From Kiritimatiellaceae bacterium (GTDB taxonomy: Bacteria > Verrucomicrobiota > Kiritimatiellia > Kiritimatiellales > Tichowtungiaceae), in NCBI GenBank assembly GCA_013141415.1, contig JABFQY010000003.1:519729-583728 (forward strand): a stretch of 64,000 nucleotides of DNA, given 5' to 3'. The notes beneath the pieces were generated by a model. It was not told where the DNA came from. It made no database searches and worked only from the letters and a program-made list of their open reading frames with translations. Position 1 is the first letter of the stretch; the number at the start of each line of letters is the position of its first letter. The position numbers and the translations under genes are program-made. Below, piece after piece: positions 11,836 through 60,444 of this stretch.

Positions 11836-12468
11836 CTAGCTGCGCATGGTACCGCCGAAGGGGCGGTAATGAGCGCGGCCTTTTTCGAGTTCGGACTGGG
11901 CGCGAACGGTGTAGCGGACATACGGAAGCGCCTGAAGGCGTTCGATATTGATCGGCTGACCGGTCAGTTCACAAATTCCAAAAGTGCCTTTTTCAATCCG
12001 GCGAAGCGCCGCGTCGATTTCGAAAATCACTTCCTGCTCGCTGCCCATCATGTTGAGCTCCATTTCACGGTCAAACGTGTCGGTTCCTTGGTCGGACAGC
12101 GACGGATCGCGCTGGTTGGCTTCGAGATTATCGCGGGACAGCGTGCTGTATTCGCCGGAAACGCGTTCGCGGAGCGTCAGCAGAACATCCTTGAATTCAC
12201 GGGCTTCCTTGGCGGTCAGCTTCTTAGCGGCAGGCCCGGCAAGCACTGGAGCAGCCGGTTTATGCACGGGAATCGGAATGATTTTTTTGACGGCCTTCTT
12301 CGCGGCGGGCTTTGCCTTGGCGGGGGCCTTCTTAACCACAACCTTTTTGGCCGCTTCTTTTTTAGCCGGGGTCTTCTTGGCAATTGTTTTTTTGACCGCC
12401 GGTTTAGCCGGTGTCTTTTTCACGACTTTTTTAGCCGTTTTCTTATTCAAAACTTTTTTAACAGCCAT
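11836..12468 (-). CDS. TraR/DksA-like protein with lysine/alanine-rich N-terminal tail
   Basis: The 210-residue protein is in two parts. Residues 1 to ~85 are a basic low-complexity tail of KK-x-PAKK-like repeats, resembling histone-H1-type bacterial tails. Residues ~95-210 match DksA/TraR: a helical pair (LRERVSGEYSTL...SEQEVIFEIDAALRRIEKGTFGICE) then the zinc-finger position. Only the first cysteine of the usual four-Cys finger remains (FGICELTG, then IERLQALPYVRY), so zinc binding is doubtful. DksA proteins modulate RNA polymerase through its secondary channel; the tail suggests nucleic acid binding. ATG 12468 is preferred to an upstream TTG. Confidence 0.85.
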   Translation of the reverse strand: MAVKKVLNKKTAKKVVKKTPAKPAVKKTIAKKTPAKKEAAKKVVVKKAPAKAKPAAKKAVKKIIPIPVHKPAAPVLAGPAAKKLTAKEAREFKDVLLTLRERVSGEYSTLSRDNLEANQRDPSLSDQGTDTFDREMELNMMGSEQEVIFEIDAALRRIEKGTFGICELTGQPINIERLQALPYVRYTVRAQSELEKGRAHYRPFGGTMRS

Positions 12469-18486: not shown

Positions 18487-20115
18487 TCAGCCTAATTCCA
18501 TTTTTTCAACCACCGCTTCGGAAATACGCAGGCCGTCGATGCCGGAGCTGACGATGCCGCCGGCGTAGCCCGCCCCTTCGCCGCAGGGATAGAGTCCGCG
18601 AATCGCCGACTGTCCGTCTTCGCCGCGAACAATCCGTACCGGACTGGAGCTACGCGTTTCAGATGCGTAAAGCAGTGCTTCGTCCAAAACCACGCCGTGC
18701 ATACTGCGAAGCATTTTCGGCACGGCACTGCGTAAGGTGTGTTCGACAAATTCCGGCAGCAGTCCGCGCAGTTGCGCCGGACGGGCCATCGTGCAGGATC
18801 GTTCCGCCGGAAGATCGGACGGTGCCGCGCCTTCCAAAAAATCCACCAACCGCTGGGCAGGCAGAGAATAATCCGATCCGCCCGCCGCGAACGCCGCAGC
18901 TTCCAGTTTTTTCTGAAATTCGATTCCAGCTAAAACATTGTAGCCGAGGTCCGTGACCTCGGATTTTTTACCGCCCTCACGGCGGGCGGCTACAATTGGG
19001 AAATCTTCTGTCATCACGGGAACGAGAAAAGCGGCATTTCCCATCGGCTTGTCGCGTCTGGACAGACTCATGCCATTGGTGGTCATCAGACCGGCCGACG
19101 AAGCGCAGGCAATAACCAGTCCGCCGGGACACATGCAAAAGGAATAGCAGGCGCGGGCATTTTCCTCTTCGCGGCGCGTCAGCCGGAAACTTGCTTTTCC
19201 AAGCGTTGGAAAACTGCCGCCCCACTGTGCCGTATCAATCCGGTGCTGGGGAATTTCGAGCCGCACGCCGACAGCGAACGGCTTGGCTTCGAGCGGTACG
19301 CCCTGCTCTGCCAGCATTTCGTAGATGTCGCGGGCGCTATGGCCGGTCGCCAGCACACAGCAGTCAGTACGGAACTGTTCGCCGGAAATCACCGCGCCGC
19401 GCACCGCGCCGTTTTCAATTTCGAGCCGGTCGAGCCGCGCGCCGAAGCGCACTTCGCCACCGAGTTCGATAATCCGGTTGCGCAGCGCCGGAACCAGTTC
19501 TTCGAGTACGTCGCTGCCGATGTGCGGTTCGGCGTCGATCAGAATATCGGGCGACGCGCCGCAACTCACCAGCGCTTCGAGAAAGCGGCGGACGCGCGGA
19601 CGGTCTTTGCTGCGCGATGTCAGCTTGCCATCGGAAAAAAGTCCCGCGCCGCCTTCGCCGTAGAGCACATTGCTTTCAACATCCAGCGTTCCGTTTTTCC
19701 AGAAGGCTTCGACCCGTTTGGCGCGCGGCGCGGCGGCTTCGCCGCGTTCAATCAGAAGCGGCTTGAGCCCGGCTTCCGCCAGACCGAGCGCGGCCATCAG
19801 TCCGGCGGGACCGGCGCCGACCACGAGAATTGGCGATTGAAGATTGATGATTGATGATTGGGGAGTGGAGATCAGGGTTCGGAGTTCAGAAACTTCCTCA
19901 ACATCGCGCAGACCGGCGGGGAGTTTGCCGGAAAATTCGACTTCGACGGCGACGGTCATACGGGGCGAACGTCCGCGGGCATCAATCGATCGGCGGATGG
20001 TTTTCAGTCCGCTCAGCGCCGACGGATTACATTTCAGCGCCTTGGCGGCGGCCTTCAAAAGCTGGTCGGGCGTGTATCCCGGCGGCAAATCGAGCTGGTT
20101 AATACGGAGTTTCAT
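18487..20115 (-). CDS. FAD-dependent oxidoreductase with in-frame repeat insertions
   Basis: The 542-residue flavoprotein has a N-terminal ~85-residue domain, then the dinucleotide-binding motif ILVVGAGPAGLMAALGLAEAG, LLYASETRSSSPVRI and a C-terminal GEGAGYAGGIVSSGIDGLR, typical of the large NAD(P)/FAD-dependent dehydrogenase family of unknown substrate. Two stretches look inserted: QSSIINLQSP just before the FAD motif, from an ATCATCAATC-type tract, and IVAARREGGKKSEVTDLGYN before LAGIEFQKKLE, from a double-hairpin repeat (18938-18995). The frame stays open through both. The start at 20115 gives the family N-terminus but has a weak ribosome site. Confidence 0.85.
   Translation of the reverse strand: MKLRINQLDLPPGYTPDQLLKAAAKALKCNPSALSGLKTIRRSIDARGRSPRMTVAVEVEFSGKLPAGLRDVEEVSELRTLISTPQSSIINLQSPILVVGAGPAGLMAALGLAEAGLKPLLIERGEAAAPRAKRVEAFWKNGTLDVESNVLYGEGGAGLFSDGKLTSRSKDRPRVRRFLEALVSCGASPDILIDAEPHIGSDVLEELVPALRNRIIELGGEVRFGARLDRLEIENGAVRGAVISGEQFRTDCCVLATGHSARDIYEMLAEQGVPLEAKPFAVGVRLEIPQHRIDTAQWGGSFPTLGKASFRLTRREEENARACYSFCMCPGGLVIACASSAGLMTTNGMSLSRRDKPMGNAAFLVPVMTEDFPIVAARREGGKKSEVTDLGYNVLAGIEFQKKLEAAAFAAGGSDYSLPAQRLVDFLEGAAPSDLPAERSCTMARPAQLRGLLPEFVEHTLRSAVPKMLRSMHGVVLDEALLYASETRSSSPVRIVRGEDGQSAIRGLYPCGEGAGYAGGIVSSGIDGLRISEAVVEKMELG
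18938..18995. repeat. REP-like double hairpin inside a coding sequence
   Basis: The 58-bp unit has 9-bp inverted ends (TTGTAGCCG / CGGCTACAA) and two inner hairpins: CCGAGGT...ACCTCGG and CCGCCC...GGGCGG. The same ends bound the RAYT unit at 59920-60444. It is translated in frame as part of the FAD oxidoreductase. Confidence 0.88.
19825..19862. repeat. Tandem ATCATCAATC-type tract inside a coding sequence
   Basis: On the minus strand the sequence repeats CAATCATCAATC-like words (CAATCATCAATCATCAATCT, then TCAATCGCC). It encodes QSSIINLQSP between the N-terminal domain and the FAD motif of the oxidoreductase. Confidence 0.6.
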
Positions 20116-20186
20116 AGGATTTTTCTTTAATTCAAAACGGAAAGGTATATGACGGACGCTTTCTTTTGCGACCAAAAAGGAGTTCC

Positions 20187-30200: not shown

Positions 30201-30300
30201 CCGCCAAGGCGCAGAGAGTTTCTAATATGGAAGCGTAGACGCGACGCCCTCGTCGCGTTTTACTATGAATGAATGCGACGAGGGCGTCGCATCTACGTTT
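30201..30300. repeat. About 100-bp direct repeat, copy 1 (CGTAGACGCG palindrome)
   Basis: It begins CCGCCAAGGCGCAGAGAG and contains a palindrome at 30234-30297 with ends CGTAGACGCGACG / CGTCGCATCTACG and two hairpins around CGACGCCCTCGTCG. An almost identical copy is at 31224-31323 and a shorter relative at 31048-31112. The 316-bp gap between mdh and the next gene holds only repeats. Confidence 0.88.
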
Positions 30301-31047: not shown

Positions 31048-31112
31048 CGTAGACGCGGTGTCCTCACCGCGTTTCTTAGCATGGATAACGCGGTGAGGAC
31101 ACCGCGTCTACA
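31048..31112. repeat. CGTAGACGCGG palindrome, related copy
   Basis: Ends CGTAGACGCGG and CCGCGTCTACA bracket two hairpins built on GCGGTGTCCTCACCGC and its inverse. It is preceded by the same GCCAAGGCGCAGAGAG word as the copies at 30201 and 31224. Confidence 0.82.
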
Positions 31113-31223: not shown

Positions 31224-31323
31224 CGCCAAGGCGCAGAGCGTTTCTGAACTATGGAAGCGTAGACGCGACGCCCTCGTCGCGTTTTACTATGAATGAATGC
31301 GACGAGGGCGTCGCATCTACGTT
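31224..31323. repeat. About 100-bp direct repeat, copy 2
   Basis: Nearly identical to 30201-30300, including the internal TTTTACTATGAATGAATG spacer between its two hairpins. The region 31007-31380 holds only such repeats. Confidence 0.88.
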
Positions 31324-52002: not shown

Positions 52003-52170
52003 CTGTAGGTGCAGGCGGGTGACTTCGCCTAACGTTTGTACGGTGGTTCCGAGCATTGGGAAAAACGCGGGTAGCGTTGCCGTTCTGAAGAGCGCCGGGT
52101 GAGGTCACCCGGCCTACATAACACTGAAAGAAATCCACTCCCCTGTAGGCCGCGTGACCCCACGCGGCGG
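52003..52170. repeat. TGTAGG-type double-hairpin repeats
   Basis: Hairpins CGCCGGGTGAGGTCACCCGG then CCTACA (52093-52118) and TGTAGGCCGCGTGACCCCAC (from 52144) face each other; a weaker related word (TGTAGGTGCAGGCGGGTGAC) is at 52003. They fill the 51905-52194 gap between rlmI and tyrS; no gene is seen. Confidence 0.75.
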
Positions 52171-58449: not shown

Positions 58450-58595
58450 AGACTCTCGAATACCACAGCTCTCTCATTCTTGTCGAGCATCCCCCTGATC
58501 AGTCCTCCGGTACCGGAGGCCGGCAACTCTTTTCCAATGGTTGGAAAAAATCCGCTTTCATCTTTCATCGTTCATCCTTCATAGTTCGCCCCGTC

Positions 58596-58986: not shown

Positions 58987-59925
58987 ATGGGAAAACTGGA
59001 AAATACCTTTTCGTGGTCGTTCAGCGCAGCGGCGGATTTCGACGAATGCCGGCGGCGGCGCTATTGGAGCAAGTACGGCATGTGGGGCGGCTGGGAAAAG
59101 AACGCCTCTCCGGAAACAAAAAAGGCCTACCAGCTCAATAAGATGGATAACCGCTGGGGTTTGATGGGTCAGGCAGCAGAAAATTCAGTCATGCGCATTC
59201 TGCGCCAGCATCAGGCTGGCAATCCGATTACTGCCGACGAAGCATTCGAAACCGTCGCCCGTCCTTTCCTGCGCCAGAAGTGGACGGAATCCAAACGCGG
59301 CGAATGGAAGACTGATCCGAAAAAGTTCTGCTGTCTGCGCGAACATTATTACGGCGTGATGGGCGATGAAAAAGCGGTCGCCGAGCAGATGAGCGGTCAG
59401 ATCAAAAACTGCATTATCAATTTTGTCGGCAAGGTTCTTCCGAGAATTGGAACCGTCGCCCGCGAACAGGAACTGCCGGTTAAAACGCCGGATATGGGCG
59501 GCGACCCGGAGAGCATCGAGTTCAACGGTGTGAAGATGTATGTGATTCCGGATTACGCTTATCGCGTCGGAGGACAGTTTCATATTCACGACTGGAAAGC
59601 CGGCAAGGTAAAAGAATCGCACCGCGAGCAGCTGGGGCTTTACGCGCTCTGGGCTCGTGAAAAATTCCGTGCCAAACCCGAAGATACGTTCCTCTACGTC
59701 GAATATCTAAACGAAGGTCTGGTCGCCCCGTTCCAGTTGACCGCCGAAGATTTCAAACTGCTCGAAGCGCGTATCGAAGATTCCGTGGCGGAAATGACGG
59801 AATATCTGGTTGATTTTGATCGATCCAGAAACGCACCGCTCCCGAAGGAGGAGTGGGAACTGGCGGCCGATCCGGCCTCATGCAAAAACTGCAACTTTTA
59901 CGAGCTCTGCAAAGCCGAATTGTAG
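58987..59925 (+). CDS. PD-(D/E)XK nuclease, Cas4/RecB type with predicted Fe-S cluster
   Basis: The 312-residue protein has an early cysteine in DFDECRRRRYW, a nuclease core with IPDYAYRVGGQFHIHDWKAG (D...D-W-K) and REQLGLYALWAREKF as the following Q-x-x-x-Y helix, then a C-terminal CKNCNFYELC. The four cysteines fit the Fe-S arrangement of Cas4/AddB-type nucleases. No cas genes or CRISPR are present. Its stop codon TAG lies inside the left hairpin of the RAYT unit, so its extreme C-terminus may have been changed by that insertion. Confidence 0.85.
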   Translation: MGKLENTFSWSFSAAADFDECRRRRYWSKYGMWGGWEKNASPETKKAYQLNKMDNRWGLMGQAAENSVMRILRQHQAGNPITADEAFETVARPFLRQKWTESKRGEWKTDPKKFCCLREHYYGVMGDEKAVAEQMSGQIKNCIINFVGKVLPRIGTVAREQELPVKTPDMGGDPESIEFNGVKMYVIPDYAYRVGGQFHIHDWKAGKVKESHREQLGLYALWAREKFRAKPEDTFLYVEYLNEGLVAPFQLTAEDFKLLEARIEDSVAEMTEYLVDFDRSRNAPLPKEEWELAADPASCKNCNFYELCKAEL

Positions 59926-60444
59926 CCGCGATCCGTGATCGCGGATGTGTATGAAATGGACACGCATAAACACATGAAACGTCTGACCGGGATTTGGGAA
60001 AGCCACCCGCGTTATTTTGTTACGGCCTGTGTTCACGTGCGCCGGAAAATTCTAACTATTCCGGCTGTACACGAGATTTTGCGGAAGCACTGGGATAAAT
60101 CTCTGGATCTGTACGGATGGGCAATCGGCTCGTATGTGATCATGCCTGACCACGTTCATTTCTTCTGCACGGATGCGTCTGGCACGACCACACTTTCGCA
60201 AATGATTGGTGCATGGAAGCAGTGGAGCGCAAAGGAGTTGACCGCACTTTTAGGGATTAGCGCCCCTGTTTGGCAAAAAGAATTTTTCGACCACTTACTT
60301 CGATCAAACGAATCCTATTCGGAAAAGTGGAATTATGTCCGGCAGAATCCGGTGCGTGCGGGGCTGGTGCTCGATGCCGATCAATGGCCTTACAAAGGAC
60401 ATGTTCATTATCTATAAAACCGAGGTCAAGGCCCTCGGCTACAA
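59920..60444. mobile_element. RAYT unit with inverted TTGTAGCCG / CGGCTACAA ends
   Basis: A 525-bp segment is bounded by hairpins. On the left is TTGTAGCCGCGATCCGTGAT then CGCGG, and on the right CCGAGGTCAAGGCCCTCGG then CTACAA, giving 9-bp inverted ends. It encloses one RAYT gene. The same ends bound the repeat inside the FAD oxidoreductase at 18938-18995. Confidence 0.88.
59956..60417 (+). CDS. REP-associated tyrosine transposase (RAYT), family 2
   Basis: The 153-residue Y1 transposase has HUH in MPDHVHFF and the tyrosine motif WNYVRQNPVRAGLV. It differs in length and sequence from the RAYT at 13406-14005, so it is a separate family. Left and right hairpins lie directly outside the frame. 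The ATG at 59956 is one of several possible starts (59935 GTG, 59974 ATG); no strong ribosome site is present. Confidence 0.88.
   Translation: MDTHKHMKRLTGIWESHPRYFVTACVHVRRKILTIPAVHEILRKHWDKSLDLYGWAIGSYVIMPDHVHFFCTDASGTTTLSQMIGAWKQWSAKELTALLGISAPVWQKEFFDHLLRSNESYSEKWNYVRQNPVRAGLVLDADQWPYKGHVHYL

Follow-up and report, generated by a model that had tools for sequence, protein, structure and literature searches.

In-frame insertion of a REPIN in a variable loop of an FAD-dependent oxidoreductase of a Kiritimatiellaceae bacterium, with repeat-encoded peptides in further genes

Results

The host gene and the element within it

The window (by which we mean the whole 64,000-nucleotide stretch of DNA analysed) contains, on its reverse strand at 18487..20175, an open reading frame of 562 codons for an FAD-dependent oxidoreductase, whose start codon is probably M21 (20115), the position at which homologues begin. 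The frame encodes FAD-binding domains and a full C-terminal PF21688 domain (E 1e-53), and the best solved relative of its product is VP0956 (PDB 3nlc, E 2.5e-111). A preliminary description of this DNA had placed a 58-bp double hairpin inside the gene, and we found it at 18938-18995 (no strand assigned), where it lies entirely within the frame as codons 394-413, reads TTGTAGCCGAGGTCCGTGACCTCGG-ATTTTTTA-CCGCCCTCACGGCGGGCGGCTACAA and encodes the 20 residues IVAARREGGKKSEVTDLGYN (predicted tryptic peptide across the insert: e.g. SEVTDLGYNVLAGIEFQK). Its first arm (18940..18962, forward strand, GTAGCCGAGGTCCGTGACCTCGG) consists of GTAG followed by a perfect 8-bp stem with a 3-nt loop, and its second (18971..18993, reverse strand, GTAGCCGCCCGCCGTGAGGGCGG, with an identical copy at G000:C1:96927) of GTAG and an 8-bp stem with one mismatch. 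The arms stand in inverted orientation and face each other (18940 on the plus, 18971 on the minus strand), most REP clusters of the genome likewise being plus/minus pairs, and the element folds as two hairpins within one long stem (DNA fold z -3.83; 0/200 shuffles as good). It is a non-autonomous doublet of GTAG-type REPs, that is, a REPIN.

An AlphaFold model of the oxidoreductase (44 homologues) reached a mean pLDDT of 91.8 and a pTM of 0.90, and was matched by Foldseek to 3nlc with a TM score of 0.90. The insert (model residues 374-393) has a pLDDT of about 49-62 and contains the sole segments below 50, while 3nlc is gapped along this stretch in the sequence alignment. The surface loop envisaged in the preliminary description has its counterpart here in a low-confidence loop within a confident model, from which the insert would presumably be exposed and disordered. 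Furthermore, comparison with the sister species gave a dN/dS of approximately 1.0 within the insert (a value that rests on few sites, i.e. 7.5 nonsynonymous and 2.5 synonymous changes) as against 0.096 elsewhere in the gene; by this measure the peptide drifts in a near-neutral manner, while the enzyme around it is conserved.

Empty sites and the sister species

A tblastn search of the oxidoreductase protein against about 100 relatives recovered homologues with the pattern NAAFLVPVxxxDFP-loop-LAGIEFQ, in which the loop amounts to a few residues in most closely related genomes. Among the homologues compared at the site, the REP peptide was confined to the species of this window and to its sister species (G013, equivalent to L039; 90 % identity), which agrees with the suggestion of the preliminary description that these residues would be missing from homologous enzymes. 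Between fixed anchors the window species has 147 nt of DNA, and genus members free of any insert have 96-102 nt, i.e. a net gain of 45-51 nt; since an insert of 58 bp that adds a net 45 nt calls for a target loss of about 15 nt, some native loop sequence (~5 residues) was probably lost at insertion. The earlier figure of about 20 gained residues therefore stands for what the REP encodes (20 residues), but not for the net gain, which relative to the closest homologues lacking the interruption (147 versus 102 nt between anchors) is 15, with ~5 native loop residues replaced. As had also been stated, the gene stays open throughout its 562 codons, and the frame is open in the sister species too.

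The sister genome was assembled independently and carries the insertion at the same site. Between the two copies, stems and heads differ at 1/40 positions, and spacer, loop and edge positions at 9/20 (p = 9e-5), a contrast for which gene conversion, re-insertion and selection on the hairpin are all possible causes, none of them singled out by the data. The sisters also differ at both ends of the insert, each having a matched pair of its own (TTGTAG/CTACAA versus CTGTAG/CTACAG). The same loop is occupied in two further genomes: in G008 (L040) an extra 141 nt is bounded by terminal inverted repeats, and parts of this insert have matches at 34 further places there; in G026 (L019, from another family of the same order) an extra 30 nt includes GGGCAGGCTTCCCAGCCTGCCC, a palindrome that its genome matches 9 times (both strands counted; control 0). 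The inserts of the window species, G008 and G026 are mutually unrelated in sequence, and all of them keep the frame.

The REP family and its RAYT

Hairpins preceded by a GTAG head (GTAG + 8-bp) occur 15 times in the window, as compared to 0-1 times for each of seven control tetramers. In the genome (2.22 Mb), the Family-I pattern, to which the REPIN belongs, accounts for 45 units versus 3 for the reversed pattern, and further GTAG families are present (of the GGGCGGG-, GGCCnG-, ACGCGACG- and GGACAGGC-types). The window also encodes a RAYT (REP-associated tyrosine transposase; 59935..60417, forward strand) with HVH and NYVRQNPV motifs, which matches profile NF047646 with 104 bits (cut-off 80) and is flanked by a left REP (59922..59944, forward strand, GTAGCCGCGATCCGTGATCGCGG) and a right REP (60420..60442, reverse strand, GTAGCCGAGGGCCTTGACCTCGG). 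One of these is a CCGCGATC arm and the other a CCGAGG-type arm, i.e. the same arm types as in the doublet at 18938-18995. The kinship of ends claimed earlier with a RAYT unit 41 kb away was borne out: the unit starts at 59920, 40.9 kb distant, and has TTGTAG...CTACAA ends. RAYT-like genes were found in 14/14 genus genomes, and those of two related species (L229, L230) are flanked by a GTAG REP type of their own, different from the one described here.

The window holds other repeat arrangements as well. At 52094-52168 a REP pair is reversed, its GTAG heads pointing inward, unlike the window's other doublets. Three ACGCGACG/ACGCGGTG-type REPINs (30235-30296, 31049-31111 and 31259-31320) lie within 1.1 kb and have alike left flanks (aaggcgcagag...), which suggests a duplicated unit, and three TTTTAGCCG-like matches at 12360-12442, spaced by about 30-40 bp, possibly form a small tandem repeat.

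In-frame REPs in other genes

REPs of the genome were located within ORFs carrying Pfam domains for alanyl-tRNA synthetase (AlaRS, 5 units), TilS (4), U32 peptidase (4) and HsdS (3), as well as in a mevalonate-kinase-like GHMP kinase (2), TatD (2), a CinA/cytidylyltransferase ORF (2) and a family-A DNA polymerase (1); this tally derives from stretches fetched for containing REPs and so gives no intragenic fraction. Within the window, 1/7 REP pairs is intragenic. Empty-site comparisons cover the FAD enzyme, AlaRS and TilS.

AlaRS is normally an essential enzyme, and no copy was found in the genome besides the gene with the REPs (alaS; L149:3104-5836, reverse strand as given for L149; G000:C1:319603-322332). 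The five translated units of this gene fall in two loops (residues 395-411 and 502-528), which in G013 are filled with repeat-encoded peptides of that family and in G007, G008 and G012 with a different repeat-encoded peptide, GAGAPACGKMADEGVC-like in sequence; the loops are short in G009, G010 and G006, and the first of them contains a long unrelated sequence in G001 and G003. The gene for TilS (tRNA lysidine synthetase; L154:489-1808, forward strand) harbors two translated REPINs. Its first site is empty in G001, G003, G006, G007 and G008, one REPIN is common to the window species and G013 and almost identical in the two, spacer included, while G010 has a REPIN that belongs to the same family and differs in its spacer, and G009 a larger, unrelated insert. 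Across the genus, the alaS and tilS loops have been struck more than once.

An iterated palindrome at the landing sites

At the FAD site, the uninterrupted homologues in L041, L012, L014 and L043 carry a TTTTCCAAnnnTTGGAAAA-like palindrome, of which the window keeps the left half, TTTCCCAA (18996..19005, reverse strand), before the REP; in TilS the uninterrupted site is TTTCCAAnnnTTGGAAAAC-like, with the REPIN beginning immediately after it. Matches to the TTTTCCAAnnnTTGGAAAA palindrome number 90 per strand in this genome (control 0-2), and 24-391 per strand and genome across 14 genus members (control 0-1). REP clusters touch it within about 5 bp in 5/52 cases, against 0.06 expected under a uniform null that ignores coding/intergenic structure. 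Generic hairpins beside REP ends showed no enrichment (5/79 versus 4.8 % at random, the random set including the REPs themselves), and only the specific TTTTCCAA palindrome was over-represented at REP ends.

The TTTTTCCAANNNTTGGAAAA palindrome occurs genome-wide (in the window at 19195-19213 and 58530-58548, among other places) and numbers tens to hundreds of copies in each of the 14 genus genomes (controls 0-1), about half of its sampled copies lying in ORFs, where they often read FFQxLEK and also FPxLGK or FSNxWK; it resembles highly iterated palindromes such as HIP1. The copy at 19195-19213 stands in the oxidoreductase gene itself and is native, homologues keeping P-x-LG-x-ASF. A second insertion at this TTTTCCAA palindrome (19195) was ruled out, the protein motif being conserved down to the Vibrio protein 3nlc.

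On these grounds we put forward, tentatively and as a possibility somewhat short of an even chance, that the REPINs of this genus prefer sites at or beside a pre-existing TTTTCCAAnnnTTGGAAAA palindrome (often within native coding sequence), and that loops near it (FAD oxidoreductase, TilS, U32 peptidase) may act as hot spots in which repeat-encoded peptides come and go, in some cases in enzymes that are normally essential. The choice of targets by REPINs is a lead and not a result.

Discussion

Origin of the insert

Taken together, these observations make it very probable that a GTAG REPIN entered a variable loop of the FAD-dependent oxidoreductase without breaking the frame, and gave rise to a peptide that would be tolerated. 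The mobiliser was probably a RAYT (a HuH/Y1 single-strand transposase) such as the one at 59935-60417, and the 20-residue repeat-encoded peptide (net +15) would be accommodated by the enzyme as a disordered loop. Judging by the open frame and its conservation, the peptide is likely translated in the cell; the enzyme has presumably retained its activity, and the insertion would be ancestral to both sister species.

That the palindrome might be native coding sequence which happens to form hairpins is a thought lent some substance by the other, native palindrome of the same gene (19195-19213), as it documents that in-situ palindromes occur in this lineage; homologues without the 20 residues nevertheless refute it (the preliminary description had itself looked to such homologues to decide the matter), and the sequence fits a GTAG REP family of about 45 dispersed units; we regard a native origin as extremely improbable. 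A decaying pseudogene or an assembly error would be conceivable for genomes that are contig-level assemblies (several of them MAGs), yet it is highly improbable where all 562 codons are open, purifying selection acts on the remainder of the gene (omega 0.096) and the sister species, whose genome was assembled independently, has this insertion in the same place.

The two copies in the sister species bear on two further accounts. Were the hairpin kept for a role at the level of nucleic acid (an mRNA hairpin or the binding of a protein to the REP) with the peptide as a by-product, conserved stems beside drifting spacer, loops and edges would be in line with it; re-insertion, or gene conversion among members of the REP family, would however explain the stem conservation equally well, the window copy has a broken pair in arm 2, and the same loop holds unrelated repeats in other species, all of which leaves such a role unlikely. 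A separate gain of the copy by the sister species, with the loop as a hot spot instead of the site of one old insertion, has in its favor the differing spacer and edges, the ends that differ as a matching pair, and the repeated hits in other loops (alaS, and tilS, where the spacer in G010 is a different one). The two copies nonetheless agree in arm order, orientation, frame and boundaries, and the tilS insertion that is almost identical, spacer included, in the same two species indicates that shared insertions exist; we therefore consider independent gain doubtful, though less so than a role for the hairpin.

Significance and relation to known systems

The insertion of a RAYT-mobilised REPIN that we favor would offer a clean, alignable example of mobile DNA making protein sequence, with empty sites, a sister copy and a likely mobiliser brought together around a single window. 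Moreover, the repeated hits in the alaS and tilS loops turn two questions into testable ones: whether the peptides ride along neutrally, and whether hairpins are the targets that RAYT elements select.

A literature search on palindromes of Kiritimatiellota returned nothing relevant. The phenomenon as such is already known, and our case is a well-supported new example of it. Translated intragenic GTAG REPs are known from the work of Di Nocera et al. (2013) on many bacteria, Verrucomicrobia among them, with the highest number of intragenic cases in Opitutus terrae (Verrucomicrobia); more than half of these REPs were dimers or groups giving 20-30 amino acids, they were RAYT-associated, their targets included DNA repair and tRNA-synthetase genes, and one shared insertion site was reported, in recB of two Xanthomonas species (PMC3733652). 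With respect to that work, the present case adds a new lineage and new genes, together with empty-site homologues, omega values and a loop model, and differs in that loops are reused by repeat families unrelated to one another; the newer parts are this reuse of loops and the REPINs adjoining the highly iterated native palindrome TTTTCCAAnnnTTGGAAAA.

The likeness to rickettsial palindromic elements drawn in the preliminary description is apt, even if the intragenic translated GTAG REPs (PMC3733652) are the closer precedent. According to the summary in PMC10969869, the Rickettsia elements (Ogata 2000, 2002), which are the classic example, are ~150 bp long, in contrast to the 58-bp element of this study, and lie in frame in unrelated genes, where they are translated and thought to be structurally tolerated. 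What is common to both is an in-frame, translated palindromic repeat, i.e. a likeness of workings, with no claim of membership or of sequence kinship; RPE-4 and RPE-6 were grouped with CGTC and not with GTAG repeats (PMC3733652). How RAYT recognises GTAG and a perfect palindrome has been examined in vitro for other species (PMC8266576). With REPINs and REPtrons (PMC8266576, PMC8049555), the elements described here share REPs made of GTAG and a perfect palindrome, the inverted pairing of REPs in doublets, and a RAYT with the same REPs on either side, whereas those systems are mainly extragenic and several of the present elements are intragenic.
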